From contig CP084618.1 of assembly GCA_025917655.1 (NCBI GenBank), forward strand, positions 124,001 to 188,000: DNA of 64,000 nucleotides, given 5' to 3'. Below the pieces are notes generated by a model. It ran no database searches. It had not been told where the DNA came from and saw only the letters and a program-made list of their open reading frames with translations. The first letter of the stretch is position 1. Each line of letters begins with the position of its first letter. Position numbers and translations under genes: made by a program. Source of the DNA: Chlorella sorokiniana (Eukaryota; Chlorophyta; Trebouxiophyceae; Chlorellales; Chlorellaceae). This document shows positions 23,908 through 47,833 of this stretch, piece by piece.

Positions 23908-26900
23908 ATGGACGGCTTCAAGACAGCGGCTGAGGAGCTGGCGGCCAATGGTGCGACATGTTGCCTGCTGCTGCTTGGCCCTGCTGCTGCCCGCGCTTTT
24001 CGGAAATCTGCCGCCGCCAAGCGCGTGCTGGTGGCCGATGGCAGCCCAGGCCGCCTGCTGTCCTGGCTGTTTGATCAGTCCAGTTCCTTCTGAGCCAGCG
24101 GCCCGGTTTGCAAGCGTCAACGTCTGCATTCAGCTTCGCTGCCATGTCACGCGCCGCACCTCCCGCCGCCGCTGCCAACTGCCGGTCTTCCTGCAATTTC
24201 ACTGCCCTGCAGGCATGGGAGAGGCCTCTGATGTGGACGTGGAGGATGCCTACGCTGAGCCTGACGCCCCCGGGAAGATTGTGGAGGTCACGGTGGGTGG
24301 TGGAAAGCGTTGGGTGCCGTTAGGGGGGCTGCAGCCCTTGCCGCCGCAACGCGCGCCTCTGGAAGCAGCCGCACCACCGTGCATGGACCACACCCCTCCA
24401 GAAGCGCGGCAGCATGATCGATTCAGGGCTTCACTCCTCCTGCAGCAGCGCATTGCAGCTGTGGCAGCTGTGCTCGGCCTGGATTGGTGTGGGTTGACAA
24501 GTGTTGCTGCCACGCTGCCCCCCGGGTGTCTCCCCGCAGGCGGATGGCGGCGTGAAAAAGGAGAGATCATCAAGCCTGGCTCCGGCTGGGAGGAGCCCGA
24601 GACGGGCGACAAAGTGCGGGGTGAGCGCCGCCGACGTCGCTGCCGGGCCGCAGCGACGCAGCAGCACCACTGATCCCCCCTGGCCTCAGCCCTCAATGGC
24701 TCGTGCCGGGGGTGCCTGCCTGCCAAGTTCCAGCCCAACTTTCCCGTGTGCGTGTGCTGCAACCCCTCCGGGACACGTCAATCGGCTCACGAGCCGTCAT
24801 CGTGTTCAGCTTTAATGCCTCTTGCGCGCGTGTTGGTGTGTGGGTGCAGTGCACTACGTGGGCACCCTGGAGGATGGGACCAAGTTTGACTCGTCCCGCG
24901 ACCGCGATGAGCCCTTTGAATTCGATCTGGGCACAGGTGGGCACTTGTACTGCCTGCAGCTGCATGGCACCGCAGCAGTACGCCAGGGCCATGCAGCCGC
25001 TGGATGCTCCAGCCGCAAGCGGGCAGGGGGGCTCCTTGTATCTGCGCAGCCGGGCCTGGCAGGTGCTTTGGGGCTGGCTGTGCAGAGGGGGCAACGCCCT
25101 GGCTGCTGCTGGCGCCCCAGCCTCAAAAAGCGCACGCTGGCATACCGCGGCTGGGGCCGGCTTACCCTCCGCACTGCCCTGGCCCGGCTCCCTCCCCCAG
25201 CACACACACACACACACCCTGCTGCGGCCACCCGCAGGCAGCGTGATCAAAGGCTGGGACCTGGGAGTGGCGACCATGAAGAAGGGGGAGGTGAGCGGCG
25301 CAGCGCAGCATGCACAGCGCGACGCAGCACGCCCGTCGCTCCCCACGGCGGCGCCCTCCGCATGCCTCCCCGGCTGCCGCGCGGCTCGTCCGTCTCTGCG
25401 CTGCCTGCACGCACCCACAAGGAAATGCTGATCCTTCGCTGCTGTCCCTCTCCTCTCCCGCTCGCGCTCCCTGCCCAGCTTCCTGTCATGTCTTTGGTCT
25501 CCTCTTGCTCCACGGCCCCCGCAGGTCTCCAAGTTCACCATCAAGAGCGACTACGGCTACGGCGACAGCGGCTCGCCCCCAAGATCCCCCGGCGGGGCCA
25601 CCCTGGTGAGGCATTCGGCGGCTCTCGCCGCCCCACGCTTCCTCACCTTCCTCCCCAGCTGCGAGTTCAGCTGCGGGCCGTTGCCTCCCGCCAGCCGCCC
25701 TGCTCACCGCCACGTGACGGCCCCTGATCACTGCCTCGGAGTTATAAGCATTTGCTGGTGCCCCTGGCCCCTGGGTTTACCGCACATCCACGGCACATCC
25801 GCCGCAGATCTTCGAGGTGGAGCTGCTGGAGTGGAAGTCGGTGAAGGACATTGCGGGCGACGGCGGCGTGATCAAGACGGTGCTCAAGGAGGGCAGCGGC
25901 TGGGCCAAGCCGCAGCCGCGGGACGAGGTGTGCGTCAGGTGCGGCCCGCCGCCGCCGGCCAGCCTCTCGCCTGGGCCTGTGGGCTTCCGGAGGGAGCGCG
26001 GTCCCCGCCTGCTTGAGCAGCCGCAGCTCGCTGGCTCACCCCCTCCCCCAAAACCCTCACCTCTCCTCTGCCTCCCCAATAGAGCCTCCACACACAAACA
26101 CACACGAACACTGTTCCCCCCTTGCAGGTTCTCCGCTCGTGTGCAGGGCGCTGCCGAGCCTTCTACTCCACCCCCGAGGAGGGGGTGGAGTTTGTGCTGG
26201 AGGGCGGCCACTTCTGCCGCGCGGTGGGCACCGCCGTCGCCAGCATGAAGAAGGAGGAGGAGGCGCGCCTGGTGGTCAACCCCGAGTGTGAGTGCCTCCG
26301 CTTGTTTCTCCCTCCAAAACCTTGGTTTGGCTTTGGCAAAGGGACAGCAGCGTCGACTGAACGGCACCTAAAAGAAACAAGCACAAGGCCACGGGCAGCG
26401 CTGCAGGGCTGCTAGGAAACGCACGCCCCCCCTCCCCCTTGACGCAGACGGCTTCGGCGAGGAGGGCCGCGGCGGCGAGGTGCCCCGGGCGCCAGCCTGG
26501 AGGTGGAGCTGGCGCTGCTGGGTTGGAAGAAGGTGGAGGCCGTGACGGACGACGGGCTGGTGGTGAAGAAGACGCTGGCGGACACCGACGACTGGAAGCG
26601 CCCCAACGCGGGTGCGGCTTGCTTAGGGGCCCTGAATCCAGCTTCGCCGTCCTCCCTCCTGGCTTCCGGCCGCTTGCCGCCCCGGAGCTGCAGGCCCGCC
26701 TGGCTGCAGCTGCTGCCGCCGCTTTGCTGTGCTCCGCACTCGGCTCGGCGGCGGGGCCCACTAGCCGCCTCTCTCCAAGCGGTGGCACTGAGGAGCCCGC
26801 CGTGCCTGCCCCCGCTTTGCTGTGACGATGAGCAGGCTCTAAAGTCACGCTGGCCTACACCGCCCGCCTCCCGACGGCACTGTGTTTGACGAGAAGAGCG

Positions 26901-29198
26901 CCGAGGCGCCGCTCACCTTCACGACCGACGAGGGTGAGCCGGTGGGGCAGCGGTGCATGCGGTGCAGGCGGTACAGGCGGTGCAGGCGGTGCGCTCGCCC
27001 TGAGCTGGCGTGTGCTATCATGTGGGGGCAGCTCGGGAGGTGCCCAAGCCACTCCTGGGGCCAGGGCCTGGACGGCACACGCCCAGCTGCTCTGGGGAGA
27101 GGTCCGGCGGTGCAGCATGCCTCCAGTGGACGGGCAACGCATCCGGCTGAGGACATTGCCCGTGCTTCCCCTGCCCTCGGCCCGCAGGCGAGGCGCCGTG
27201 CGAGGGGCTGGAGCTGGCTGTGATGAAGATGAAGGAAGGGGAGCGGGCGCTGGTCAGCGTGGCACCGCAGTACGCGTTTGGGGAGCAGGTAGCTTCCGCG
27301 GGGCTTCCGCTCCGCTTTGCTCTGCGCAGCCGCGTGGTTGTGCAGCCAATGCAAGGGTTGCGTGCCAGGACGGGGGGTTGGCAGCAGCGCTGCAGCTTCC
27401 GAAGCCTTGCTGTAAAGGCGGTCTTGCAAGCCGGCTGAAAGATGCCGCTTCTGTGCTGGGCGCGCTGTGGTTGCAGGGCTCGCAGCAGCCGCTGGCGGCG
27501 GTGCCACCTGGCGCCTCCGTGGAATACGAGGTGTCCCTGCTGAGCTTCGTCAAGGTACCGCTGCATGTACCGCTGACCGTACCGCCATTGCTCCCTGGCC
27601 TTTGCTGCGCCCTGCTGCCCAGGCCTCTGCCGTGGTCTCTGACCTGCCTTGCGATATCGCAGCCGCCCTTGAATGACCGTAGCCAGACTCTGGCCTTATC
27701 CCGCCCTCCTGCCCAGCGCCTCCTCCCACCCCCTATCTCGCGCTGCACAGCCGTCGCTCCTGCCGTTCCTTGCCTGTTTGTCACTCTGCCCTGCCTCTCT
27801 GCATTTCTGCCCTGCAGGCCAAGGACAGCTGGGAGATGGAGACTCCTGAGAAGCTGGCGGCGGCTGCGGCGCAGAAGGACAAGGGCAACGCGGAGTTCAA
27901 GGCTGGGCGGTACGCCAAGGCCGTGCAGCGGTACAAGAAGGCGCTGGAGGTGATCGAGTGAGTGTGGGGGGAGCAGGGAGGGGAGCGTTGGGTGTGCGGT
28001 GCGGGCACCACACATGTAGAGCCGCCATCTGGGCTGAATGCTTCAAGGCTGGGAAGTGCTCCCCGCCTCGGCTCCCGCTCCTTGCCGGCGTCGCCACGCG
28101 GTGCCAACGGTACCGCCTGGGCGCGGTACCGCTGCGCAGGTACGACGACAGCTTCACTCCCGACGAGAAGAAGCAGGCCAAGGAGGTGAAGAAGACGTGC
28201 AACTCCAACCTGGCGGCCGCACACCTCAAGCTGGGCAACGCCGCGGAGGCGCGCCAGGCGGCGGACAAGGTGCGGGGGTGCCGCCAGTGCGTACGCGGGC
28301 GGGGCACGGCAGGGCGGCAGGGTGCGCGCATTGCCGGGGGGGCCAGGTCAGCAGGCCGATAGAAGTTGCACCGGCGCAGCTTATCCTCCTTCAGTTTGAA
28401 TCGAACCTGGCGCTCGCCGTGCAGCATGAAGGGGCCGCACCACCGTGTTGCCGACTCCCGGGTCTGCACCGTTGGTGCCCATCGCTGTACCGCCCCGTAC
28501 CGCAGGCCCTGGAGGCCGACCCCTCCAACCTCAAGGCGCTGTACCGCCGCGCCCAGGCCTGGCTGGCCACCGCCGACTTTGTGGAGGCTGAGCTGGACAT
28601 CCGGCGGGGGCTGGCGGAGGTGAGGCCTCTGGATGCTGGTTGCTTATTAGTTGTGTTTCTTTTAGCTAATTAGTTAGTTAGCGTTTGGTGTTAGTTACTT
28701 AGTTGCGTTTTTCTTTCCTTCTCTTGCGGGGAGGGGGAGGCAATCCTCACGGGCTGGCTGGGGTGAAAGGTTGATATCTCTCCTTTTGGAAGAGTGGAAC
28801 ACGCTGGGAGGAGGGATGTGTGCACGGTGCAGGCTGCCCAACCGGCGCCTGCCATGCAGCCGCTCCCCGCATGGCGGCAGCGCTCATGCAGCGCGTGGCT
28901 TACGCCGCATTTAAAAACCGCCGCCTCCCCGTCTCTGCCGCAGGACGCCGCTTCCACCGACTTCAAGCTGCTGCTGAAGAGGTTCAAGGCGGAGCAGGCG
29001 GCGGCGGGCAAGAAGGAGGCAAGCCTTTACTCGGGGATGATGAAGGCGCTGGGGCGGCCCGCCGCCAAGAAGCCCGCCGCCCCGACAGCCCCGCTCCGGG
29101 CGACGCCCGGCCTCCGCCGGCGGCGAGAACGAGGCGGCCGCCGCCGACGGCGGGGCGGCGGCGGCCCTGCCGGCGGCGAGGCGATGGAGCAGCCGTGA
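23908..29198 (+). CDS. Multi-domain FKBP-type peptidyl-prolyl isomerase with TPR (FKBP62/ROF1-like)
   Basis: Three FKBP domains are followed by TPR repeats, the layout of plant FKBP62/65 (ROF) co-chaperones that bind HSP90. Domain 1 has [51 protein letters not shown] and SDYGYGDSG, and keeps the active-site Tyr, Phe-Asp and VIxGW residues. Domain 2 ([20 protein letters not shown] ... [19 protein letters not shown] ... PEYGFG) lacks VIxGW and is probably non-catalytic. Domain 3 ([55 protein letters not shown]) is intermediate. The TPR part reads [39 protein letters not shown] and [20 protein letters not shown]. Exon 1 (23908-23950) joins exon 2 (24214) in phase. Frame breaks at about 24570, 26163, 26483-26489 and 26870-26872 interrupt conserved text and look like indels. 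The C-terminal tail is Arg/Gly- or Ala-rich, depending on frame. Confidence 0.9.
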
Positions 29199-29845
29199 AG
29201 CGTTCTTGACCGGGCGCTTCTCGCTGCCGGAGCAGCGGCCTGCCGGCGGCAGCGCTGCTCGCACAAACAGCCACGCACTTGATTTCATCAAACTTGGGGC
29301 GCATGCGGATGCCTGGGCCAGCGTCGCTACAGCCGTAGTGGCGCCCCATGGCGGCCCTGCTCTTGAGGCCTCCTCACCCGCCACTTCCCCCTACCTTTTT
29401 GAGTTTTGCCCCAACGTTTGATTCTCTATACTAGTTCCGCTGCCATCACCCAGCCAGCACTTGAGAGCGAGCAGGAGGAGGCAGACGGCTCATCGCTACG
29501 GCGGACACTCCTCGAGGCTGCCTGCCGCACAGGTTGTGGCCAGCAGCGCGCGGAGAAAGGCAACCGCGTTTTCAGCTTGCTTCTTTGTTCAGGTGTTGCG
29601 GCGGCGGCAGCAGCGTGTAATTCCCTGCTCATGCCGCTGCTCGCGGGGCAGGCTCGGCCAGCTGTCGGCGCCTGCAGAGTCCCCCGCCGTGCCCCTGCCA
29701 GCGCTGCTGCATCGCACGGCTCACACGCACATAAATCACGCAGAATCAAAGTCGCAATGCGCTCTGAACCAATGCAGCAGGGGAGGGGCTCAAGCAGGCG
29801 AGTCTGGTCACGCTGTGGTCACGCTGCGCTGCTCCAGCACAGCGC
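29199..29845. other. Convergent intergenic / 3' UTR zone
   Basis: The FKBP gene (+) and the thiamine gene (-) end here. No conserved reading frame is seen. A plus-strand TGTAA at 29616-29620 could be the FKBP poly(A) signal. Confidence 0.4.
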
Positions 29846-32800
29846 TCAGCGTGCCGGCTGGGGCTGCTGCCGCTGCCGCCGCGCCTCCAGCGCCGCATCC
29901 ACCGCCGCACGCAGGTCGCGGGCGGCGTCCGCCGGGCTGTCGGCCCCAAACACGCCGGAGACGACGGCCGCGCCGGCGCAGCCCGCAGCGATTGTTTCGC
30001 CCGCGTTGCTGGCCTTGACGCCGCCGATGGACACCACTGGAGGGCAGGGGATGAAAGGGGGTGGGCGCAAAGCTGCTTGTGAGCAGCGATCAGAGCGCTG
30101 CCTGACGCGCCAGCGGGCCCGCCAGAACAGACGGCGAGTGATAGCAGCAGCCGTGGCTTGGCGGCGTCACGAGAGCTTTTATGAGAGCCAGGCCGCCGCC
30201 GCTGCTGCGTTCCCTCACCTGGGATGCTGACGGCGGCGCAGATCCGTGCCAGCTGCTCCAGCCCAATCACGTCTGCAATTCACGGTCGAAAGTCGAAAGT
30301 AACTTGCGATGAAACAAACCTCACGGGGCAGGGGTGGGCAGCTGCCGGCCGGGGCTCGGCGGCGCGGCTGCTGCCCTCCTTGCCTCAGAGCACCCCCTAC
30401 ACCCCAGCGCAGCCCAGCCGCGATTTTCCGCGCCCCCAGCCGGGCTATCCAGCTTGCACAGGAACGGCTTTCAGAACAGTACGAAGCTTCACCCCTGCAG
30501 CGGCCGAGCCAGAGCGCCGCTCACCAGATTCTTTGGTGCCCGTAGCCCACACAGCCCCCGCCCCCAGGTAGTCGGCGCCGTCGGCTTCCGCCCTCAACGC
30601 CTGCAAGCACAGAGCGACAAGCGGGGGAAGAGGCGGCGGAGAGCCAGCAAGGGTGGGACTGGGGGCAAGGGAAGCACGGGGCACGCTCGGCGGAGTCTAA
30701 TCGGGCGCCGCGCTGCCTCGAAGCGCTGCCAACGCCCAGCGCCCCCTCCCCCTGCTTTAACGTCAAAAGCACATACGCACACACGTGCACCGCACGACAC
30801 CCAACCCACCTGCTCCACCGTCTTGACCGACACCCCCAGGATGCGGTCGGGGCCGATCATGCGGCGCACGGCGGCGGCGGGAGGTCGTCCTGCGGGGGCA
30901 CAAGGAGGGGTCGGATGGTTGGAAAGGAACGAAAGAAGGGGGGGGGGGGGGCGCGCAGGCCAAAGCAGCGAGAGAGTATCGAGCATGCCATGGGAGTGGC
31001 CAACCGCTTCCTCATGCCCCCTCCGTTTCTTTCGTCTGTGATGAGGTGCCCCTCCGCCTTTCTCACCCACACCGGCACAAGCCCAGCCACACACAAACCA
31101 GCCGCACCACTCGGTTGCATCAACCAGCCGCACCCTTCGAAGCCCCGCTCTCACCTGGCCCACATGCACCCCGTCTGCCCCCACCGCCAGCGCCACATCC
31201 ACCCGGTCGTTGATGAGAAGCGGCACCCCCGCCCGCGACACACGGCCAGCACGGCGGCGGCCTGGGGGTCGGGGGGGGTGGAAGGGGGTCAGGGGGCAAG
31301 GGGGTGTTCACGAAAAAAAGAAGCAGCCTGCCCTGCAAGCCTTCATAAGGCTCCCGGGCCAGCGGGGCTCGACAGAAACCAGCAGCAGCAGCAACCAACA
31401 ACGCGCTGCCCCCACACCCAACGGCCAGCTTGTTGGGCTGTGCGAGCGCACGCCGTGCCGCCGGTACCGCCGCCCCGCTCACCTCCTCCAGAAAGGGCCC
31501 CCGTCCGCCTCCTTCTCTCGCAGCTGCACCAGCGTGACTCCGCCGTCCAGCGCCAGCTGCACCGCCTCTGCAGGCCGTTGTGCGGTGGGGTGGTGGGGTT
31601 GAGCATGTGTATGATTTTGTTTTCTTGCGTGTTTGTTTTTTTGGTTTTTATTTGAGGGGGGTCCGTCTGGGGAGGGCCAAGCGGAGGGTGCAGCGTCAGT
31701 GGGCCCTGGCTTGCCCTCCAGCCCACCAGAACGGGTTCCCACGCAAACGACGAAGGCGCTGGCCTAGCCCGGCAGCGTGCAAGGGGGCAGCTCCCGAGCC
31801 AGCCCATGCTCATCACCCGGCCAGCCGATGTTCGGCCCTCCCCCTCCACCCCCACCCCCCAACCGCGCACACAAACACACACACGAGCCCAGCCCAGCCA
31901 GCCCGGCGCCGCCGCCCGCCCCGCCGACGTCGGCCGCCCAGCCACCTGCGTTGGTACGGCCGTGAGCGGCGTTGCAGCCCGGGTCCGTCACCGCATACGC
32001 CCGGAGGTCAACAGGGTTGGCGATGCGGGTGCGCGCCGCCGCCGCCGCCTCAACCTGCTCCCGCGCCGCTCTGTGGTGGGTGCAGGGTGCAAGCGCGCGT
32101 GGGGAGGGGTGAGTGTGGCGAGGTCGTTGGCGCGCGTGTGTGTGCATGCGCGCGAGATGGGGGGGGTGAAGAAGGGGGCACAGCGGCAAGGGGGCGAGGA
32201 GGGTTGAGGCGCGGAGGGAGGGAGAGCGGCAGGCACGGCGCGCGCTGCATGCGCCGGCTGCTCAGGCAAGGCCCCTGCACTGGGCTTGCAGTAGCTCGCG
32301 CAACCCCGACGCAACCCTCGCCGCCCCTCCTCATCACCCGCAGCGTGGCTGCTGCTGCTGCTGGGCAGCGCTCCGTCGGCGCCCAGCGCGGCCCCCGCCG
32401 CCGCCAGGTCGGCGGACCAGTCGGCGATGGCGAAGCCGTGGTTCATGGGCTTCTGCAGGGTTTCACCAGGCACGGTGGCGGGCAGCGCGAGTGTGTGCGG
32501 GTCAGTATACTTTGGTTGGGGTGTGTGGGGGCAACAAACAATGCAGAAAACCAAACAAAACCAAACAAAGAGGAAAATTGGACAAGCAATGCGTGCAGAT
32601 GGGCAGAGCCTCGGCCGCTGCGCCTGCGCCGTGCGGTGGCCGCCGCCGTCCGCTTCAGCCCCGCCACAGTGCGCACGAGCAAGATCAGGTGAGGGAAGCT
32701 GTGCGGCAGCCGCCCGCCCCTCCCACCCAGGCAAGCCCAGCCAAAGTTCCTTCTGCTGCACAGTTCGTTCTGCCGCCGCACCGCACCCCTCCACGCACCT

Positions 32801-35800
32801 GCCGGCCCTTGCCCAGAGGCAGGTCCCGGCTGCGCTCCAGCATGCGCCACACGTACCTGCACTCAAAGAGGGAGGGCTCCCATGTCATGGTGTGTGTAAG
32901 TGGGTGAAATTGTGAGAAGGGGTGGGCATCCAAGGGCTCACATAAGCCGGGCGGGCGGAGGGTGTGAGTTGGCGGGGATGGCAAGCAGGCTGGAAAGCAG
33001 GCTGCAAAGCAGGGTGGCAGGCAGGGTAGCAGGCAGGGAGCGGCCTCGCCCCCAGCCCACTCACTTCTTGGCGCGCCGCACCGCCGTCGGCACGTCGGCG
33101 CCCTTTGCCAGCTCGGCGGCTATGGCTGAAGCCAGGCTGCAGCCCGTGCCGTGCGTGTTGCCGGTGCTGCAGGGAGCAGGAACACAGGCGGGAGAGACGC
33201 CACAGGGATGAAGACTTAGCAGACGGCAAAGGGAAGGGGTGCTCGAGCGGAGGACGCGCTGACAAGCAGCGGTGAGCTGCAGCAGAGCTGCCCGCGACGT
33301 TGTAAAGCCAGCGGGGCTGCCAGAAGGGCGCCAGCGCCCCGCCAACCGCCATCCTCCCCCGCCTCACTTCACTTGGAACCAGTCCTTTCCCCACCCACAA
33401 ACACAGCGCTTCAGGACTGCAACGCCCACCCCTGCCGCATCCAACCCCCAAACCCGCCTGATGTGAGGCTCCTGCAGCTCAATCATGTTCCGCCCATCGA
33501 AGAGCACATCGGTGACGACGCGGACGGGCCCGCCGCCGCCGCCGCTGGGGTCCGCCGCCGCCGCCTGCTCCGAATCCGCCAGATGGCCGCCCTTGATGAG
33601 CACCCACTGCGCAGTTGGTGGTCGTGTGTGTGTGTGGGGGGTGGGGGTGGGGGTGGGGGGCGCGCGCGGATCAATAAGAAGGAGGGGGTGGGGAGGGTTG
33701 AGGTCAAGCAAGCAGGATATGGGGAGGGGTGGGCAGGCAGGGTGCCGGGAAAGGGAGGCGAGGGCGGGACCCCGGCAGGTTGAAAAGAAAGCGTTTCTGC
33801 GTGGCTTCGAGGAGGCAGCCAGCCACAATGACTTGGCGGAGCCAGCCCCAACACCAACGCCCATCGCCAGGGCCAACATCAGTACCAAACACTAAACCCC
33901 AAAGCCATCGCCCCACCTGGGGTCCGTAGCGGTGGAGCTCTTCCGCCGCCGCCCGCATGCCGGCAAGGTCGGTGATGGCCAGCCCGTCTGCGGCGGGGTG
34001 GGGGTGGGTGCAGGGCCAGGCCAGCAGCCATGGCGGTGAGATGGACGCAGGAGGTCGGAGCGCAGCCAGCCAGCCAGCGGCGCGCGCAGGCTACGTGCAG
34101 GTACGTGCTCCGTGCGGGCGGCGGGGGCGGCGACTGCAGAACCCCAGCATGCGGGACACGACGACAGCGCGAGCACGGCGGGAGCGCCGCGCACCCAGCA
34201 GCTTGGATGCCTCTGGGATGTTGGGGGTGACGACGGTGGCCAGCGGCAGCAGGTGGGCCTTCAGAGCCTCCACCACTCCTGATGTGGGGAGGCGGGGGTG
34301 GGTGAGTGGGGGCCGGGAGAAAGAGGGGAGAGGGTTGCTAATGCCCCTGTCGTTGAACGCACCAGCGCGGCCAGGGCAGGCCCGCGGCACGCAACAGGAA
34401 AGTGATTCACGAATCCGCCCCCACCCCAACCACCGCCGCCGCATGTCAGGGGATGGAATGTGCCCCCGGTGAGCCTCCCCACACTCCAATAAACAAAACA
34501 AAAGAACATGTCAGTGAACAACTCCCGCCCCCTACGCCCCCATCACCACCACCACACACCCGTCGCCGCCAGCGCGTCGCCCGAGGTGGCCACCAGCACG
34601 GGATCCACCACCAGCCGCACCAGCCCGCCGTCCTGCAGCTCCTGAGCCACGGCCGCCACAATCTGCTCGGGCCGCCCGGGAGGGGTTGGGGAGGGGTGAA
34701 GGGAAGGTTGCGGTTGGTGCGCATCCAGGGCGCCGATGAGCGCGGAGGGCGGTTTGGGAGGGACGCAGGTACTGAGGTGCGGGAGCGCCGCGCGCGGCGC
34801 GGCGCCAGTGTGGGTTGGGCAAAAGCCCCGGCACGGCAGCTCCTGAGCCCACTGCCACCCTGCCGCTGGCGTCCCACTTTGGCGCACAAACACACCACAC
34901 GACCGCCAGAAACGACACCGACAACCCGTCCTGAACACTCGACACAAATACGCCGCAAGAGCGCCGCCAAACACGTGGCCTCACCTCGGGCGTGGGCAGC
35001 ATGCCCGTCTTCACCACATCCGCCCCGATGTCGCCCAGCACCGCCGCGATCTGGGCGCGCACAAAGTCTGGGGGCGGGACGTGCACCTCGGACACGCCGT
35101 TGGTGTTCTGAGGGAGGGAAGGGGGCGGCAGGGGGGGGCCAAAGGGTGGGAGTGGGTGGTGCAGGCGACTGGTCGAGGGTTGACGATGGGCGGGACCTCC
35201 GGTTCGTCCCACGACCGCTGGCTGCTGCAGCGGCCCCTCTTTCTAGCGGGAGCACCCTGCCGCCTGCAGATCCACCCAGCCCGCCCTCAGGCGCACGCAC
35301 AGAGCGCAGCTCGGGGCAAATCAAGGCGCGCGCTCGCCGCGCCGACCCGCCGCCACGCCAGCCACGCAGGCTGCGTGGCGGGCCGGGCGGACGCTGGCAG
35401 AGCTGGACAGCCTGCCCGCGTTGGGCTGGCTTCCGGGCGCGCCCCAACCACCCTCATCCCGACTGTGAGCCACAGAGGCACGGGGCCGCTGCCGCAACGA
35501 CAGCCCTCCCTTTTCAGCCACCGGCCACCCACCAACCTGCGCAGCGGAGCGGTGACGGCGCCCACCCACCCATCCCCTCACACACCCACCCACCCACACC
35601 TGCGCGGTGAGGGCGGTGATGGCGGTGGCGCAGTAGGCACCCGCCGCCATGCACGCCTTCACGTCGGCCTGGATGCCGGCGCCGCCGCCGCTGTCGCTCC
35701 CGGCGACGGCCAACACTCGGGGCACCTGCGTGTGGCGAGTGTGTGTGTGTTGGGGGGGCAGGAAGGGGGGGAAGGTGAGCGGCGTGAACAATGGTGGGAG

Positions 35801-38800
35801 CCGGCACCGCGAGGCGGAACAGCGCCCGCTCCCCTCCCCGTGGGACACACCAAAAAGAACCGTGACGCCACCAGTGAAGAGCACACTCACAGGCTGTCCA
35901 ACCACCGCTTTTCCACCAAAACCGCCCTGCACCTTGCCCCGCTGGCTCCTGCCACCCGTCCACCCCCACTCGCCACCACCCACCACCGCCACACACACGC
36001 GCCCCCACCCCCAGCACCCACACACACCTTGCCCTCCGCCACCGCCGGCGCAGTGGGCGGCGCGCGCTCCCGCATGCTGGCGGTGCGCCGCTGCGACCGC
36101 ACAAACTGTGGGCCAAAGAGGAAGGCGGATATCTCGGCCCCTGCAGGAGGTGGGAGAGGCAGGGAGGGCGGCAGCTGTGGGAGGCTTTGTGAGGAGCGGC
36201 GGGGGAGGAAGGGCAGAGCGGGCTGCAGGCGGCTTTGAGAAGACGCTTGTGCAAGGAACCCTGAACGCTTTGCTTGCCACCCAAGCTGCACCAGGAACAA
36301 AGAGCTACATTTGACTGCCAACAAAAACCTGGGGGAGGGCGGGGGCAGCCGGCAAGCGCATACAGCGCAGTGGCGTTGCGCCGCAAGCAAGCAGCGGGTG
36401 CCAGCGAGGACGCAGAACGCAGGGCGCGGTTTGGCTGCTCGATCTGCGGTGCCGCCTGACGGCGGCTGGTTCGCTGGCGGCGCCAGCAAGAGGGGCGGTG
36501 CTGCCCCCTCCCATCACGCCCACCCCAGCCCTCGCTGCGCTGCCTGCGCCGCCGAACAGCGTTCCCCCACACACACACACGTACACACGCATGCACACAC
36601 GTGGTACTGCGGTACTGCCTCACATGACGAGGCCTCGTACAGCGTGGGCGCCTCGTCAGCGTGGCTCTCCTGGTCCCGCAGGTCGAGGGGGCGCTGCCGC
36701 CAGCGGCCGCACGTCGATGCCTGGGGGGGAGAGAGTGTGTGTGTATGTGGGGGGGTCCTGAGTGTGTGTGTGTCAATGCCTGGGCGGAGGCATGTGTTGG
36801 GAGAGCGCGGTGTGGGTGTGTGGGTGGGTGGATGGATGGGTGGGGGCGCAGGCGCACATGGCGACTGCATGGATGGTAAATAGGCCAGAGAGGGCCTGTG
36901 GCTGGGACCTATCTGCCCACCCGCCCGCCCACCCACCTGCCACCGCCGCCACCTGGCGCACCAGGGCGTTGCTGCCCACCAGGATGCCGGCGTCAGCAGA
37001 GATGAGGGGCGGCAGGTCGGTCATCGAGTCACCGATGTAGACTGCAGGGGGGTTCAATGGTTGCGAGGGGGAATGGAGCGGGAGGAAAGGCAGGTTGCTG
37101 TGAGCAACAGGAGGAACCACAGGGTTGGCTGCTTGCATGCAGGTGGTGGGTTGGCTGCAAGAGGTGCAGCGCGCCGGTGGTGGAGAAGAGAGGGAAGGCT
37201 CTCAGGGAGACCCTGGGTATCCAGCCATGCCGGGCTACGGGCAGGCGGGCAGCGGCGGTGGAACAGGCGGGGCGGCGGCGGCGGCACGCTGGTCCTGCCT
37301 GCCAGCCTCACCGCTGATGCCCGCCTCCGAGCCTCCCCGCTGCCGCCAGGTCGAGCAGCAGGTCGTCCAGCAGGCGCCCCTTGTCCCCCGCACACTCGCA
37401 CCGCCTGCGTTGTTGGGTTGTTGGGGGGCAAAGAAGGAGAGGGCGTGTATGTGGTGGTGCCCGGGGGCGGGTGTTGCTGTGTTGCTGTGTTGTTGTGCCC
37501 CGCACAACCCTGCCACCGCCGCCGCCGCCGCTGCTGCTGACCTGGCCCCCGGGCATCGCGCGCACCCTGCCGCCCTGCCGCGCCCCGCCCGCGCACGCAC
37601 TGGCGGCACCCCGTTGAGCTGGCTGCGCCCCTGCCGCCAGGCGCCCCCTCACCTCTTGATGCTGCCGGTGGAGGTGTCGCCAAAGTACTCCAGCTCGTTT
37701 GCGCAAACCATGACGCAACCGGGGGCGCCGCCGCCGCGCTGGCCCCCTCAAACTCTGCAGGGGACAGACGTCAAAGGGGATGGGGGGAGGGGAGGGGAGC
37801 GTCAGCAGGGGATGAGGGGAGGGGAAAAGGGCGGGAGCCGGTGCCTGCCCAGCGCGGCGGTGGTGCACACAAGGACAGAGGGAAAGGGCAGCGACAATCG
37901 CATGGTGCATGCGTACACGCCAGCCCAGCTCCGAGCCAGACACGCGGTGCGGGCGGAGGCCCGACGGATCACGAGCTCAGCGCGCGCAGCACATGGGGTC
38001 CCCCCCCTTCCTCACCCGCTTCTGCCACCGACAGGCCTTGCTGCGCCAGCGCCGCCCGCACCATCTCCGCCGACCAGTTGACCGACACAACGTAGCTGCA
38101 TGAATGTGGTTGATGTGGTTTTTAAAGGGGATGGGGAGGGAAGAGAGAGGGGAGGGGGCACCACATGAGTGTGTTGGGTCGGCGGCGGGTGCGGTGCGGA
38201 GTTTGTGCGTGTGTGGCATGAGAGGTGAGGGCTGAGCAGAAATGCTTGAAGGGTCGAGAAGGCTCGCCACGCCGATTCCCCTGCCTGGCACCACAAAATC
38301 AAAGCAGCTGACACACACCAAGCTTTCACCACCTGCATCTTCCCCCCCCCCAAAGCGCAGCGGGCGCAGCAGGCACAGCAGGCGCAGCAGGCGCAGCGTG
38401 CGCACGTCGGGATGCCGGCCTCCGTCGCCCGGCGCAGCAGGTCCAGGCAGCCGGGCTGCATCCGGATGGAGGCCCCCGCCCGCGCCAGCATGCCCTTCTT
38501 CACACCCGCCAGGATGCCTGCGGAAGGGGGGTGGGAGGGAGGGGAAGCAGGGGGTGGCTGGGAGCCGGGCCGAAGAAATAGGGGGGGGGGGGGCAGGGGG
38601 TGGCTGGGAGCGTCTTCTGGGCGAGCGCATGAACGGCGGGGTGCAACCCTGAAACAGAAACAGAAAAGAAAACTCTCAACAGCTTTGACGACGGCCCGAA
38701 AAAAAAAAAACTCACCAGACTCCACCACCACCCCGTTCATCTCCTTGTCAAACTCCGACAGGCGGTCGATGAAGTCGCCCTGCGGTACGGTACAGCGGTA

Positions 38801-41800
38801 CAGCGGTGCGGTACAGTGGTGCGGTACAGCGGTGCGGCACAGCGGTGCAGGCGCAGGCGCAGTGCGGAGGTGGTGCAGGGGAGAGGGAGGGAGGCAAGCC
38901 CTCTCTCCCCCAGGATGCAGCCTCCCATCCTGTGCCACAGCTTGTGCTTCGATGCGAGCGCAACGTGCGACGTGCGATGCGTGGCGCCAGATTCTACGGA
39001 AGAACCTGGCGCCATGCGCCCAGCAGATTGCATGCAGAGCGAGCAAGCCGTGGCAGAGAAAAGGCCCCAGCCAGGGCAGCGCGGGAGGCGGGGGCGGGAG
39101 AGGGGGCATGCAGGCAGCGGCAGCGGCAGGCGCGTGGGCCGGCAGCAGAGCAGCGGCGCACCAGCCAGGCCATGTCAAACTCGGTTGGTTCTTCCTCAGG
39201 CTGTCCGGATTGGGGGGGCAGATGTTGTATAGGCTTTCAGGGGAGGTCTCACAGAGCTCGAGAGCACAGGTCGAGTGGCGAGAAAGCGTGCAGAGGGCTG
39301 CTTCTTGACCGAGCCGCATGTGGCCCCCTGCCGCCGCCACGAGCCCCATCCTGCCGACAGCACCCGACCATAGTGTCCCTCCCCTCAACACCACCCATCT
39401 CACACAGCACCCACCCAGCACTGTGTCCCTACTGGCCCCCACACCCACACCCACACCCAAACCCAACACATACACACCCATACACGCCACCTTCCCCCCG
39501 CCTCCAACCACCCACCGCGCAGCACCCACCTCAGGCAGTATCTCCTCGAGCAGGCCCTGGCGCCTGGCCGAGTAGTTGGCCACCAGCCACTGCAGCTGGC
39601 CCTGGAGCTCGCCCGCAGCGCAGACTGGGCCTCGCCGCCGTCCGCCTGCGTTATGTTATGGTGGCGACGCGGGGGGGGGAAGGGGGTGGGGTGGGGGCAG
39701 CAAGGATGCTGAAAGGGAGGGGTAAGGGGTGCAGATGATGAGAGAAGGTGTTTGTTTTTTTGGGGGGGGGGCGGGCAATGTAAAGGGGAACAGGGTCGAG
39801 GCGACCAGAACTTCCAGCTGCCAATCGTGGATGTGGGCAGGCAGAGGACAGGGTGGAGGGGTGGCCGCAAGCCACAGTCAGTGCAGCCGGCAGTGGGTAG
39901 GTGTGGCATGGATGCGAGGAGAAGCAGGGCGGGGGCACAGCAAGCGGCAATCGCCGGTAAGGGCAGCATGCGAGCAGCGAGGCGCAGCGGCTGCAGCCCC
40001 CCAGCGACCTGCGCCACGGTCGCCTCTATGGCAGTCTGCATGACCAGCCCAGTGGAGTCTGCAGGGGAGGCAGGAAGGCGGGGAGGCAGCATGTGGGAGA
40101 GCGTGCCTGGGCTGGCTTCCACGCGGCGCCGCCCGGCAAGCAAGGCGGCATGGCGGGTTGTTGGGCGCACTGGGGGCATGCCAGCAAGGGAGCAGGCTGC
40201 AGGCAGAGGCAGGAGGCTGGGGCAGCGAGGCGGTACGGCAAGGCGGTACGGCAGGGCGGTACCAGAGGCGGTGCAGGTGTCGTCAAAGTCCACCACCAGC
40301 AGCGAGATGGGGCGCGGCGGCGCGCGGTACGGCTGCGCGCTGCAGGCGGCACACAGCAGGAGGGAGGGCGCGCGGGCGTCACAGGCGTGCAGCATGCAGC
40401 GCTGTGGCGTTGCCTGCCTAGACGGCCTGCCGTAAGGAAGGCAGGGGCCAGCGGGTGCAGCACCCACCCAAAAACTCCACCTCCAGCTGCATCGCCCGCC
40501 GGTAGTGCTGCACCAGGCGGTCTGCGGGAGGAAAGCGGGATTGGGCGCAAACCAGCATGTTGAGGCAAGCTGTATGCAGGAGCTGTTGCCAGCGAGGAAA
40601 GAGAGGAAGTAGATCAGGCTGGGCCTGGCGCTGGCAGCCGCGCCGCCCCCGCAGACCTGCCCAACGGGCGGCGCCGAGCGACGAGGCGCCCAAACCCGGC
40701 CGCTGCCATTGCCCCCAGGCCCTGCTGCAGCTGCCAAGCGATCTAGGGGCGGCAGAGGGCAGTCCGAGGCCGGACACGGGCGCTGCTGCGGGCTTGGCAG
40801 CTGCCACACAAGAGCGCCCAGTGGCCGCCGCCATGTTCAAGAATGCACGCAGCATTCAGCGGTCCCTCGAGGGGAGGGACGATGGGCAACGCACGCCCAG
40901 CTGGGCGCTTATGTGGCACCGCGATAGGCGCCCCGAAATGTGCCAAACAAGGGCCTGTTGTCCTGCCGGTGCCAGCCTGGCTGTACTTCGTGGTGAAGCA
41001 GCGTGCAGGCGCATGCATGGGGACATCAGGCTCTTGCAAACGGCGTCCGAGCAATCATAGACCATTTGCAGCCTGCTCAGAACCCGCCTGCAGCAATCCT
41101 GCTTGCCCGGTTCTCTGCGGTCTAACCAATTAGCTGTTTGTTGGCAACCATGAAATTGCTAACGCACAACATGCTGGCGTGCCACATCAAGGGGGTGCAA
41201 AACGGCTACCCCTGAAAATCGAGGCGGAGAAAGTGGAGACGCGGGAAATGGACTACGAGCCCGACTTCCTGCGGCACATCTTCCCCCGCATCCAATGGGC
41301 AGCGCTGCGGGAAGGAGCCGCGGCCATGGGTGAGCGGCGGCAGCACGGGAAGTGGGCGCTGGGACCGCCTTGTTTGTTTGGAGCGGCAGCGCTGCCCCCA
41401 TCCTCACCGCCTTGTCAGGGCAGCAAAGTGCGGCGCGGCAAAGCGCAGTTTAACCTGACAGGCGTCGCGAGGAGGCCAGCTCAGGCTCCTGCTAAAGCCC
41501 TCAGCATGCCGCAACGGCGGTGGCTGCCCAGGCAGCGCCGCACCTTGCGATGCGGCAGTGCGGTGTCCACCGCGCTTCTGCGCCGCCCCACGTTCCCGCA
41601 AAAACAGCAGAAACCTTGCAGAAGCTTTCACCATGGGCGCCCCAAGGCACTGCAGTCCCCCAGGCCAGCTTTTTTGGGGCAACCACCCAACCAGCTGCCG
41701 ACCAAGCTGCTGCCCCCGCCCCTCCCCCGCCCCCGCCCCGCAGGCGTGACCGACCTGCCGGAGGCTGCCAGCGAGGAGATGCTGGAGGACGACGACTTCC

Positions 41801-44694
41801 TCAAGAAGTTCCACCACGCGCTGCTGGAGGTGCACCTGGAGCAGGGGGCCCTCGTGTGCCCCGAGACAGGTGACCCCCACCCGCTCGCTCGCTTCACGGG
41901 TCTTCCCGCTCGCCTCGGGGCGGGTAGGGCAGGGCAGAGGCAGCCGTGCCATGCGCAGCAAGCTTTGTGTGCATGCCTGCGCATGCACACCCGCCCCGCC
42001 GCAGCGATGCCTCGAAACGGTGTTGGCCTCACCGCTCTGCCGCTGCTGCCGCCCGCCCCTCGCCGCCGCTGCAGGGCGCAAGTTCCCGGTCAGCGGCGGC
42101 ATCCCCAACTTGCTGCTAACGGAAGACGAGTGCTGAAGCTGGTGCTCACTGATCAAGAGCTGGCCAGCGGCCCTCACTATTCTGCCTTCCTCTGACCCCT
42201 TATGCTGCCCTGCTGCCCTGCTGCTGCTGCTGCCCTGCCGCTTGCTCCATTTCCTGCTGTTCCCTCACTCAGAGAGGCACCACTAGCTGCCTCACAGCTT
42301 TGCTTGCCTTTTCCTTGCTGCACCACACCCCAGTTTTGTTAACCCTTCAACCCCTCAATGGATGCACACAGCAAGGGGAATTTTCTTGATTGTGCTGGCT
42401 GGCGGCGCAGCAGGGCCGCCCACAGCCAGGCACTAAGTGTCAGCCCTGCGCCTCAACCCCGCCCAAGCGTCGGGAACCGAGCCCCCTTCCACGCATCGAG
42501 CACCACCTGTCTCCATCCATCGGAGACAGCCTCATCCCCCCCTTCCCCGGGCCCACCCAGCCAGCCCACCCCTAATTGGGAAAGGTGCCGTCCGTGTGGG
42601 CACAGCACCTCCTTTCTCCTCACACACTCACGCCCCACGCCTCCCCTGCCCGCAAACGCCCAGCGCACCCACCGTATGGCTCCGCGTCGGCAGTTTCATC
42701 CAGTACGCCCTCCGCCTTGAAGGGCAGGCGCAGGTACTCTGCAGATGAGTAGGAGCGCACCCATTCTGCGAGGTGGGTGGGTGGGTGGGGGGACGGGAGG
42801 AAGGGGGGGGGGGAGGGGTTGTTAGTCCATCGGCAACGAGCGAGTTTGAAGGAGGGAGGGTGACAGAGGGACAAGCAGTGGGGCAGGGTCGACCGATTCG
42901 GGGCACAGCATAGCACCCGCCCATGAACCCTCCAAGAAGCAACAGGAGGCCCCACCCGTGTACTCGTGTTCCGCAAAGGGGCAGGCCTTGGCCAGCTGGC
43001 AGGCCAGGAAGGCGTAGAGGCGCAGGCAGGGCACCATGGCCGCCATGATTGCCGCCACGCCCTGGGGGGGCGGGCAGCGTGTGAGGGTGGCAGCGTGTGA
43101 GGGTGGCAGTGTGCGAGGGTGCAGGGAGAACGCCGTCGAGCGGCAGAGGAGCAGGAAGGAGGAGGGGGCGCCGCACATCAGGCAGGAGCCCACCCAGCAG
43201 CACGGCGAGGACGGCCTGTGCAGGTGCATCAGCGGGAGGGCGTCGGCAGCCCCTGCAGCCGCCCCTCTCGCCCCCGCCCAGCAGCAGCAGCAGCAGCAGT
43301 GCCAGGCCGGCGCGCAGATGGGCCCGCCTCCGCCCCCTGGCTTCCTCCCAGCGTCCTTGCCTGCTGCGGGTCGGCCGCCACGCCGTGCACAAACTCCACG
43401 TAGCGGCGGGTGGCGGACAGCGGCTGCTGGTGGCGGGACAGATCCACACCCCACTCCTGCAAGGGGAGTTACGGCTAGTGGCTGTGACGATGTTGTTTAG
43501 TTGCCGTGTGTCTAGTGTTGTGGCGTTTGATTTATTTCCTGGGGGCACATGAGTGCATGGGCGGGCGCAGGGCGCGCTAACAAAGGTGTGAGATAGGGGC
43601 TTGAGGGCTGCAATGACAAGGATGGGCTGCAGGCTCCCAACAAGGGGCCGCGGTCCCGCCACCGCCGCTCCTCCCCCAGCAACCTCAACGGGAGCCGCCA
43701 GGCCAGCAGCGAGGAAGCGGAGGCATGTCCACACCAGTACCAACAGCGGTACCACCCACCATGGCGTAGCTGTCGTGCAGCTTCAGCTCCTCCTGCACGC
43801 CCTGCAGCAGCTCAGTGAGCGCGCGCGCCAGGTGCGGCTGCGACGCCGTGCAGCGATGGATGGCAGCAGAATAGCCCTCAGCTGCAGGGTGGGGGTGGTG
43901 GGTGCGGGGGGGGAGAGGGGGGCCTTCAGAAAGGGATTCAGAGGGAGAAGAGGCCAGTGCTCAGCGTGGCAAAGTCGCCGCTGGCTGCTGCCGCCGGCTG
44001 TGGCACAAGACGGATGGGGCGGGAGGGCAGCGCCCACTCGGGGCTCCGGCAAGGCGCCACCCTCGGCCTTCACGTCGTGGCAGCGCAGCGCCTTCTGCTG
44101 CCCGCCCAAGCCCCCACGCTGCCACTGGCGACGGGGTTGCTGCTAGGGGGCAGGAGCTCAAGAGTGCGGTCTGCCTCGACGAGCAGGGAGCGGCGGCGGC
44201 GCCCACCAAAGCTTCTCAGGAAGAAAGCGTCCTCTGCAATGTAGCTCTGGAAAGCCTCCCTGCGGGGGCACAGGGCCAAGCGGCGCCGCATGCAGCCCTG
44301 GGGCAGCGATCCAAGGCACATCGCGGGCAGCGCAGCCCCCGCGGCCGCTGAGGCGGCAGCCGGCGCAGCGGCGGCGGCAGCCCCAGGAGCGGCGGCGGGC
44401 TACGGGCGGGGCTCCACGGCATCAAGCTGGCTGCGGACTCGGCATGCATCCCAGGCTTCCGCGGTGCCCGCATGCCGGGTCCGCGGCTGCAGTGCAGCCC
44501 CAAGGCGAGAGAATGGAGCCCCCGCGGGCGGCTGCCTCAGCGGGCGACGGCGCACACCTGGGCAGGCTGCCGTGTGCCAGCGCCCTCACGAATGGGTGGT
44601 GCAGCGCCGCCATCACCGATGAATGCACCTGCTCATCGCGCCACAGGCGGCCGGCGCAGCCTGAAGAGCTGCTGGGTGTCCCGGCGGACGCCAT
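29846..44694 (-). CDS. Four-domain thiamine enzyme: TENA - HAD phosphatase - ThiD - ThiE (TH2-TH1 fusion)
   Basis: About 34 coding exons give some 1,100 residues. [57 protein letters not shown] (active Cys) and [10 protein letters not shown] (Glu). [16 protein letters not shown] (40263-40339), [43 protein letters not shown] and [17 protein letters not shown]. Exons 36624-36720 and 36028-36140 splice to [17 protein letters not shown], the TH2 C-terminus, and the latter exon runs in frame into ThiD. Thi[42 protein letters not shown] and [14 protein letters not shown] (catalytic Cys). Thi[68 protein letters not shown]; stop 29846. Together they make HMP-PP, condense it with thiazole phosphate, and dephosphorylate TMP; TENA salvages pyrimidine. 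The start is the first ATG before TENA; an in-frame extension to 44757 could be a targeting peptide. Frame breaks (30879-30881, 36687-36691, near 39610 and 37720) look like indels. Confidence 0.85.
41150..42136 (+). CDS. TRM112: TRM112 methyltransferase activator subunit, nested in the thiamine gene's intron
   Basis: Three exons (41150-41329, 41744-41869, 42075-42136) encode about 122 residues, the normal size. They read [97 protein letters not shown] and [20 protein letters not shown]. The MKLLTHN start and the C-terminal CPxTGRxFPxxxGIPNxLL are diagnostic. TRM112 is the obligatory partner that stabilises several methyltransferases acting on tRNA, 18S rRNA and eRF1. The second zinc-site region keeps a single visible CP, as in many non-fungal TRM112 proteins. 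The frame breaks at the C run 41209-41212 (TACCCC/TGA), where one extra C restores the conserved protein. The whole gene lies on the opposite strand inside the intron 40522-42672 of the thiamine gene. Confidence 0.92.
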
Positions 44695-44958
44695 GCTGTG
44701 GAAGGGGCTCGTTTCGCTCAAACTCCGACTCAATTCTGACGTAAGTATTGTCGGCATGGTTGCGACTGTGCAATACGTCTTCGGTGAGCATGCCGGCCGG
44801 CTTCCCCAGGCGCACAACAGCAAGGTTGCCAGCGCAGCACGAGCGTCCGGCGCATAGGAGGCGCATCAGGGGGCATGCATGCAATTAAAACTCATGGTAT
44901 GGCGATCGAAACGTATCAAGCCATTCTCCAATAGCCCATTGCCCCGTATTCCGCCCGC
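44695..44958. promoter_or_regulatory. Bidirectional promoter of the thiamine gene pair
   Basis: Some 264 bp separate the start codons of the TH2-TH1 fusion (-) and ThiM (+). It contains a TGACGTAA element at about 44737, a GCATGCATGC palindrome at about 44871-44880 followed by an A/T-rich stretch, and a CCAAT-like motif (tccaatag) at about 44929. These are seen in sequence; their function is inferred. I looked for a TPP riboswitch and found none. Confidence 0.5.
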
Positions 44959-47833
44959 ATGGCGCTCACAACCTCCTCAGACAGCACCTACGCGGCCGTG
45001 GCCGCTTGTAGGGCCGCCTCACCCCTTGTGCAGTGCATAACCAACGTAAGCGATAGCTAGAATCACCCGATGGGCCACTTGTGCGGCCGTGGTGGACTCG
45101 CTGCCCGCCGCCGCCGTCCAAGCACCTGTCGCCTCAACAGCTCACTGACCTGCTCCCTGCCTTGCCTGTGCTGCAGTTTGTGAGCATGGTGAGAGCGAAG
45201 ATGGCTGAATAAGTAGAACAGAGGGGCTGGCGTCTTGGCGTGCATGCAGCTGTGAACTTGCGTCCGTTCTGCTGCCTCTCCGGCGGCGCCCGACCGCCCC
45301 TGCTTCCCCTCCCGGTTGAGCCTCCACAGGACATCATGGCGAACACGTTGCTGGCTGCCGGCGCATCTCCGGCCATGGTGAGCGATCGGCAGGCTGCCGG
45401 GCCAGTGTGGATGGGGGCCCCTAGTCGTCAGCCTCGCCGCCGCGTTTTGGCGCAATGCCGCAACGCCAGCCCCGCCGCCCTCCCTTTCACCAAGCGAACA
45501 CCCTACATGCCTTTGTAGCTGCTTGGCCTTCCTGCTATCGTGACACGCTCTCCCCTCAAGTTATTGAGGCAGGCTGCTGAGGCTCCTCAGGAACTGCTGT
45601 CGCTCCATGCCATGTGCCCCCCTTCCACACGCAACCCTCCACCCAACCCTCCAACCCCCCACACACACAGGCGCACTCCATCGGCGAGGTGGAGGCCTTC
45701 GTGTCCATTGCCTCCGCCCTGCTCGTCAACGTAAGCTTGCTTGCGGCTGCCTGTGCCGCTGGCCCCGCAAGCGCATGCCCAGGCTGCCAGCCCCGCGTTT
45801 CTCGTCCGCCCTGCACCGCCCTTGTGCCCCGCCACCGCTGCGTCCACACCGTCCGCCACCTCTCTTTATTACACTTTCTTATTGATTGTTTTTTTGTTGT
45901 TGGTGGCCGCAGGTGGGCACGCTGAGCGATGACTGGGTGGGCGGCATGAAGCTGGGGGCCAAGCGTGCAGTGGAGCTGGGCAAGCCGTGGGTGCTGGACC
46001 CCGTGGGATGCGGAGCCACCCCCTACCGCTCCAAGGCACGCGGACGCGATCCCCTGCTCTCTGAAGTGCCGCCGCCGCCGCTGCTGCTGCTGCTGATGGT
46101 GCTGCCGCCGCTGCTGCCGCTGCTGATGGTGCTGCCGCCGCTGCCCGCGCGCTATCGGAGAAGGCAGCGTGGGGGTTGGCACTGGGTTGCTTGCATCGAT
46201 GTTGCTGCCGCCAGCTGAGCGCACGGAAGGGCTGGCCCCAGCCTGTGGATAGCAACAAACTTTGTTACCATCCCCTCATATCAACACCCCCCTGGGCCCC
46301 CTGCAACCGCCGCAGATTTGCGCGGACCTGCTGCAGCTCAAACCCACGGTGGTGCGGGGCAACGCGTCTGAGATCCTGTCGCTGGCGGGGGCCGCCGGCG
46401 CCGCCACCAAGGGCGTCGACAGCACGGCGGCGGCCACGGGTGCGCCGTGCTGGGTGCAGGCGGCGCCTGAAGAGCCGTGCCCGCTGGCGCAGCATGCATT
46501 ACATGATGGACACATGGGATCGGGGTGGAGGTTAGGGGCGAGAGGTGGGGGCAGCACACCAGTTGGATGGTGGGTTCTCAGTGGCGCCGGTGCCTGCAAG
46601 CGCACACTCGGCCCGCCAGCGCCCCCACGCGGCCAGGAGCCGAATTGCGGCTTTTCCATCCCATCACGCACGCTGCCCTGCTGCAGCTGCATCTGCATCC
46701 CTCTGGGAGTGGGTATTGGCTCTGCCAAGCAGCTGCCCCGCAGCTCCCTCGCTGCAACCTCCCTGGCCCCCACCTGCCCCCAAACCTCTGCCCCCATCCC
46801 CTTCGCCGCCCCGTCCACCCACCCGCCCACCTTGTTCCACCCCACCCACCCACCCTGTTCCACCTACCCACCCCTCTCAACCCCGCAGAGGCCCTGGACG
46901 CCGCCAAGCAGCTGGCGGCGCAGCACGGCTGCGTGGTGGCGGTGAGCGGCGCAGAGGATCTGGTCACCGAGGGCCGCCGGGTGCTGCGGGTGGCCAACGG
47001 CGTGCCGCTGCTGCAGCAGATCACGGCCACGGGCTGCTCGGGTGGGGGGTGGGCGGGTGGCGGCGGGTTGGGAACGTGAGAGTTGGGAGTGTGAGTGCGT
47101 GCAAGTGTGCGTGCTCATGGGTGGGTGGATGGGCTGGCTGGCTGGCTGGCGGCTGGCTGGGTCCCCTGTGCGCTTGGTGGATGGATGTGGCGGAGGGGCT
47201 GGTTGGCGGCGGGTTGGGTCCTGTGCGCTTGGTGGATGGGTGCGGCGGAGCGAGAGCGACTGGGCTGGGAGAGCGAGAGTGGGGAGGCAGCGGCAGGCTT
47301 GGGTCGGGCACTTGCCTGGCGGTGGGCTGCCCAGAGTGCCCACCCACCCCCACCCCCGCCCCCTTTTGCTCGCCGCGCAGTGACGGCGCTGGTGGCGGCG
47401 TTCGTGTGTGTGTTTCCGGAGCAGCCCCTGGAGGCCACCGCCCACGCTCTGTCCTGCTTCGGGTGAGGTGGGGCGCGGGTGTGGTGTGTGTGTGTGTGTG
47501 TGGTGGTGGTGGTGGTGGGGGGGGGCGCGCGCGCATGATCCAGATGGGTGGGGCGGGATGAGTGGGCGGCTGTGGGGTGACAGAAGACAATCTATAGGGT
47601 CGATAAACCAGCCCGCCTCCACCCACGCGCCCACCTGTATCACCCACCTATCCCGCCATCCCCTTCACCCCGACCACACACTCATCCCCCTCCCCCTGTT
47701 ATGCAGCCTTGCGGCGGAGCTGGCGACCGCCGATGGCGCCAAGGGGCCCGGCAGCCTGCGAGTGGGGCTGCTGGACCGGCTGTGGAGCTTGAAGGAGGAG
47801 GAGGTGAAGGCGGGGGCGCGTGTGCTGGAGTGA
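44959..47833 (+). CDS. thiM: Hydroxyethylthiazole kinase
   Basis: Nine exons (44959-45045, 45177-45188, 45330-45377, 45671-45730, 45913-46035, 46316-46439, 46889-47041, 47381-47462, 47707-47833) join without any frame break to about 271 residues, the usual ThiM length. Motifs: [94 protein letters not shown] and [13 protein letters not shown] (catalytic Cys and anion hole). The enzyme phosphorylates 4-methyl-5-hydroxyethylthiazole, supplying the thiazole half for the ThiE domain encoded next door. Exon 2 is only 12 nt (FVSM). The intron after exon 5 appears to use a GC donor (AAG/GCACGC), because reading on to the next GT would add nine residues inside a conserved block. No clear targeting peptide is seen. 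Confidence 0.95.
47480..47520 (+). repeat. (GT)n/(TGG)n microsatellite in ThiM intron
   Basis: A GT dinucleotide run is followed directly by TGG units and a G run, just after the donor of the last ThiM intron. Similar CA/GT and G-run microsatellites are common in introns of this window (for example 36720-36775 and 61230-61260). Confidence 0.7.

Follow-up and report, generated by a model that had tools for sequence, protein, structure and literature searches.

The window analysed here is a stretch of 64,000 bases (bases 124001-188000 of contig C13, in a genome of 38.8 Mb and 15 contigs), and its minus strand carries what we read, with a probability of about 0.77, as one nuclear gene, in a GC-rich, green-alga-like eukaryote, for a single chain of some 1,120 amino acids in the domain order TENA_C-HAD-ThiD-ThiE, with a reading frame that is interrupted most likely by indels of the assembly. 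Judged from its domains, this chain would consist of a protein like plant TH2 joined, head to tail, to one like plant TH1. In land plants TH2 and TH1 are two separate proteins. The link between the two parts has better support than an earlier reading of the letters allowed: the frame runs literally from a TH2-like tail into and through ThiD. A single transcript and a single polypeptide are predicted.

Gene structure and domains

Exon placement gives 35 exons on the minus strand, from 44694 down to 29846, and together with Pfam it bears out the domain order, strand and coordinates proposed in an earlier reading of the letters (the sequence-only reading). All 34 introns end in AG, and they start with GT in 32 cases and GC in two; a GC donor closes exon 25. 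They are 124-492 bp long, with the exception of intron 6 (2,151 bp). The many introns and a G+C content of 63-80% per 2-kb step are in keeping with a green alga. With an X put at the frame breaks, the read-through protein is 1,123 amino acids long. Exons 1-6 (42673-44694) carry the start codon at 44694 and the larger part of TENA_C, with the cysteine of its PC motif, and exon 7 (40464-40521) encodes the last TENA helix. Exons 8-18 (36624-40339) encode the HAD phosphatase domain, exon 19 (36028-36140) a TH2-like C-terminal tail (AEISAFLFG) and a 28-codon linker in phase with ThiD, exons 20-28 (32338-35725) ThiD (HMP/HMP-P kinase) and the beginning of the ThiD-ThiE linker, and exons 29-35 (29846-32070) ThiE (TMP synthase) down to the TGA stop codon. 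About 29 residues lie ahead of the TENA match, or 50 when counted from an upstream in-frame ATG at 44757, which would lengthen the N-terminus by 21 residues.

The Pfam matches on the read-through protein are, in order, TENA_THI-4 (residues 30-222, 1.3e-28), HAD (PF12710, residues 337-478, 3.3e-5, its 24.9 bits being under the 27-bit cut-off), Phos_pyr_kin (584-844, 5.5e-86) and TMP-TENI (909-1089, 6.1e-60). Among the NCBIfam models, TIGR00097 gives 287 bits for ThiD (cut-off 204.95) and TIGR00693 gives 197.9 bits for ThiE (cut-off 145.1), with three frame breaks within the latter domain, while the TenA model TIGR04306, at 78.6 bits, stays below its cut-off of 130 on the read-through protein. 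Solved (PDB) chains of ThiD, ThiE and TenA all match the fusion protein. The sequence-only reading saw catalytic residues in all four domains; this holds for the TENA cysteine and for the HAD motifs, and the domains and motifs suggest that the four domains may be catalytically active. The exon translations of HAD contain DFDDT, S (in VVSVNW), K (in DKGR) and GDSMTD, which fit the usual scheme of HAD catalytic motifs. HAD with its tail is 28% identical over 324 positions to a provisional TH2 HAD sequence, a comparison that is a lead and not a test. When TENA is aligned against solved TenA chains, the active-site cysteine is present in the PC motif; this cysteine is the criterion for TENA_C in PMC5635689, and by that criterion the domain is TENA_C.

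Intron 6 houses, between TENA exons 6 and 7 and in antisense orientation, a TRM112-like gene (41152-42130, plus strand; PF03966, 2.9e-9). We considered a gene split at this nested gene and rejected it, since exon 7, on its far side, extends the TENA match to profile position 204 of 210, from 163, and raises it from 97.8 to 104.5 bits (Pfam). The fusion gene therefore probably spans the TRM112-like gene. The aligner run with a PDB TenA reference skipped exon 7 and ended TENA in the long intron, at 41440.

Frame breaks and splice sites

Seven frame breaks were placed, four in HAD and three in ThiE, all on the minus strand; TENA and ThiD have none in the chosen gene reading. The breaks in HAD lie after 39611 (39611-39613, exon 10, adjoining GGG), after 37721 (37721-37725, exon 15, a CCCCC run), after 37335 (37335-37338, exon 16, a GGGG run) and after 36687 (36687-36691, exon 18, a CCCCC run in the HAD tail). 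Those in ThiE lie after 31495 (31495-31497, exon 30, at CCC), where the aligner with PDB references put no break exactly, after 31233 (31233-31234, exon 31), recovered with one of two PDB references, and after 30878 (30878-30880, exon 32), recovered nearby with both. The run at 36687-36691 is the only one of the seven that the sequence-only reading had noticed, so its single indel was an undercount. Two junctions, exon 7/8 and exon 28/29, are moreover problematic: the donor that looks better does not keep phase there, and the frame requires either a weaker one or another indel. Phase was kept at them by a weaker donor or a pad, the exon 7 donor being picked so that phase with exon 8 holds.

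Codon usage also places two frames in these exons. In all seven broken exons a two-frame fit is better than a single frame by 8-20 log units, a margin that still includes the extra freedom of fitting two frames. The switch of codon usage is within about 11 bases of the placed break in six of the seven; in exon 15 it lies 23-25 bases upstream.

The sequence might instead be correct, with unusual splice sites, some of them GC donors, keeping the frame at all seven breaks or at part of them; the product would still be one fusion protein. We consider this unlikely. A frame-keeping splice without an indel does exist at every one of the seven breaks, including 36687, which makes it too strong to say, as had been said, that the frame taken literally stops after HAD. 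GC donors serve at two other introns of the gene model, and the codon-usage switch in exon 15 suits an alternative acceptor better than the break that we placed. Given a provisional TH2 reference, the aligner took such a path through HAD, without breaks, when the penalty was -20 or -14; with -10, some of its HAD breaks fell at other places (38424 and 36624, neither of them among the seven). The indel reading nevertheless outscores each of these splices by 12.0-19.3 log units, on splice-site scores that (here and for the linker below) were trained on the same gene model with the scored junction left out, and in a comparison that does not charge the indel; at one indel per kilobase we estimate the charge at about 7 log units. 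At 36687 most of the splices also replace GIDVRPL, which aligns with the provisional plant sequence. The chain can stay in frame by indel or by splice alike, and indels wrongly introduced by the assembly are the likeliest cause of the breaks.

The probable fusion point in exon 19

The splice 36624/36140 yields a TH2-like C-terminal tail, which can be aligned to the provisional TH2 sequence, and exon 19 then continues in frame through the linker into ThiD, just as the sequence-only reading had it. All three frames of exon 19 (36140-36028) are free of stops, and consequently no indel within it could make a TH2 end. A stop-free exon is by itself not rare, since 3,098 of 8,631 intron windows of linker length are open in all frames. 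Codon usage is the stronger argument: a table derived from HSP70-family genes gives the linker +0.39 per codon when it is read in the frame of ThiD, against -0.91 and -0.51 in the other two, and only 41 of the 8,631 windows, which were taken from the fusion gene's own introns, are open and score as high. The 28-codon linker looks coding. In 28 of the 28 exons without a break, codon usage likewise ranks the frame given by homology first.

The earlier reading made the fusion depend on the run at 36687-36691. The frame is in fact literal, without a break, beginning with the TH2-like tail in exon 18 and lasting until exon 28 ends, so that the fusion is independent of this run, which bears instead on the connection between the HAD body and its own tail. 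The proposal that TH2 and TH1 parts lie in one gene is upheld by the stop-free common exon, the coding-like linker, the codon usage and the short distance to a divergent THIM gene (see below), and a single polypeptide would be its expected product.

It is very unlikely, in our estimation, that the locus comprises two adjacent genes, one TH2-like and one TH1-like, with separate mRNAs or a bicistronic one and with ThiD-ThiE translated from an ATG in exon 19. Such an ATG does exist, in frame and ahead of ThiD, and exclusively polycistronic transcripts have been described in green algae (PMC11291117). A start at this ATG would however leave only 16 residues ahead of ThiD, the stretch between tail and ThiD is the one without a stop in any frame, and the conserved-looking tail is in the same frame as ThiD.

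Breaks in other genes and the question of decay

A spliced, frameshift-aware alignment (penalty -30) of 10 HSP70-family genes from this genome puts 12 breaks into 4,468 codons. Of the 10 genes 8 are affected, and many of the breaks adjoin runs of G or C; with the penalty relaxed to -20 the count is 13. The count covers the 10 HSP70 regions (L070-L079) of a set of 20, the other 10 being chaperonin regions, and it may include false breaks in the four genes whose alignment does not exceed 40% identity. The reference for HSP70 was a reading by eye of HSP70B (L070) of this very genome, so that the two breaks of HSP70B amount to a self-comparison; when it is excluded, 9 genes with 3,895 codons remain, and 7 of them have breaks, 10 in all. 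The TRM112-like gene has one break in 120 codons, next to a CCCC run, THIM none in 262 codons, and ThiD none in 233 codons at the standard penalty and one at -14. Since the HSP70-family and TRM112-like genes are broken too, we read the breaks as indels of the assembly and not as decay. The seven breaks of the fusion gene, in 3,362 bases, correspond to about twice the HSP70 rate (Poisson P about 0.03, by hand), an excess that speaks against this reading, as do the unbroken THIM and ThiD. At about one break per kilobase of coding sequence, the rate in the aligned HSP70-family genes, automatic annotation would cut such genes into pieces or leave them truncated.

An exon-by-exon search of the genome found no second TH1 or TH2 locus, with the reservation that it overlooked the window's own TENA and could likewise overlook a second many-exon TH2. 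Matches to THIC, THI4-like and TPK are present elsewhere in the genome, and, no second TH1-type locus having emerged from this search, the loss of the fusion gene would be surprising. A decaying locus, with real frameshifts in HAD and ThiE and at most TENA and ThiD products, is the least probable of the readings: the confinement of all seven breaks to HAD and ThiE and their density would suit it, but codon usage is maintained on either side of each break, other genes are broken as well, the exon-by-exon search gave no second TH1-type locus, and THIC is still there.

Comparison with known fusion proteins

Fusions of TENA with HAD, of ThiD with ThiE and of ThiD with TenA are known, and the combination of four domains is unusual. 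We found no description of the order TENA-HAD-ThiD-ThiE in the literature, to which this search was confined.

The N-terminal half resembles plant TH2. TENA-HAD is a known fusion (PMC4921024), and OsPALE1 consists of a targeting peptide, TenA and HAD (PMC7868968). As in TH2 and PALE1, TENA is followed by HAD in one chain, with the qualification that HAD here is under its cut-off and has four breaks within it; unlike in these proteins, the chain goes on into ThiD-ThiE, and a long targeting peptide is not evident. The C-terminal half has ThiD followed by ThiE, the arrangement of plant and algal TH1 (PMC4260697, PMC5635689). It differs from plant TH1 in being, through the in-frame common exon 19, the second half of a larger chain and not a protein of its own.

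Other fusions combine some of these domains in a different manner. The best NCBIfam match of the fusion protein is NF007070 (PRK09517), which we take to be the bacterial trifunctional protein ThiE-ThiD-TenA, presumably without HAD. Like the present protein it joins TMP synthase with HMP-P kinase (and with TenA), but the match reaches 373.9 bits against a cut-off of 761 and the domain order is different. Yeast THI20 (3rm5) also has ThiD (match 23-296) and TenA (349-549) in one chain, in the order ThiD-TenA, with HAD and ThiE absent from the matched parts. In fungal THI6 (3nl2) ThiE likewise belongs to a bifunctional enzyme, in which it is joined to THIM (PMC4260697), whereas THIM in this window is a separate, divergent neighbour.

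A possible thiamin cluster and its probable function

THIM (hydroxyethylthiazole kinase) lies at 44959-47824 on the plus strand (PF02110, 1.2e-61), with seven introns in the aligned part. It diverges from the fusion gene, and the two start codons are 264 bp apart. With this spacing the fusion gene has its 5' end on the TENA side and scant room for a long leader. The stretch between the starts (44695-44958) is a candidate shared promoter, and THIM and the fusion gene probably have a common promoter. THIM and the nested TRM112-like gene are additions to what the sequence-only reading reported. PMC4260697 describes TH1 and THIM near each other, with SSSF, in Ostreococcus and Micromonas CCMP1545; the proximity of TH1 and THIM is similar, and the difference is that here THIM adjoins a four-domain fusion, whose TENA end it faces in divergent orientation.

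From what is known of the families, TENA would free HMP from damaged pyrimidine or thiamin, ThiD would make HMP-PP, ThiE would couple HMP-PP with thiazole phosphate to give TMP, and HAD would strip the phosphate from TMP to give thiamin, which a separate pyrophosphokinase would activate. THIM would provide thiazole phosphate out of salvaged thiazole. One polypeptide might in this way salvage pyrimidine, form HMP-PP and both synthesise and dephosphorylate TMP within one complex, and with a co-regulated, divergent THIM constitute a compact nuclear thiamin cluster; we put this forward tentatively, at somewhat under even odds. Channelling between the domains, co-regulation with THIM and a shared location of the four activities are predictions. 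Land plants divide these steps between the plastid and the mitochondrion or cytosol. A TH2-TH1 fusion, if true, would mean that in the green lineage a HAD-type TMP phosphatase is physically linked to TMP synthase, and that synthesis and dephosphorylation of TMP are forced into one compartment. The location of the plant TMP phosphatase, cytosol or mitochondrion, is disputed (PMC7868968), and synthesis and dephosphorylation in a single compartment would bear on this dispute. The fusion would also be a ready construct for testing a hand-over of TMP without release.

Other loci and neighbouring genes

Four loci considered as second copies of TH1 or TH2 were rejected. Two ThiE-family matches are not taken as a second TH1: the one at C3:3905024 (L001) looks FZL-like, its ThiE-like domain resembling, by eye, that of FZL-type dynamin-like proteins, and the one at C4:1568781 (L003) looks TenI-like, and we assume on the same grounds that it is a TenI-like gene. 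The other ThiD-family match, at C5:744854, was set aside as presumably pyridoxal-kinase-like (by eye). The sole TENA match of the search, at C3:749935 (L004), was rejected as a second TH2; by eye it looks like a stand-alone TenA. The frame of this second TenA-like gene also reads a PC motif (AAVLPCFVVYLEV), by eye. The HAD domain led to no confirmed relative among 19 pattern-matching stretches in genome_contigs or two in viral_contigs. Rfam gave no match of any kind in the window, and hence no TPP riboswitch, and RF00059 none genome-wide among the 49 of 1,116 candidates that were scored. The THIC matches are on the same contig as the fusion gene (G000:C13:271267-275783), about 83 kb past the end of the window.

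Within the window, an FKBP-type peptidyl-prolyl isomerase with TPR repeats lies at about 24100-29200 on the plus strand, convergent with the fusion gene. Judged by eye, exons at about 48300-50600 on the minus strand resemble those of a tRNA pseudouridine synthase of the TruA type (GRTDRGVHALGQV), and a series of exons at about 55700-58600 on the plus strand resembles RCC1-type repeats.
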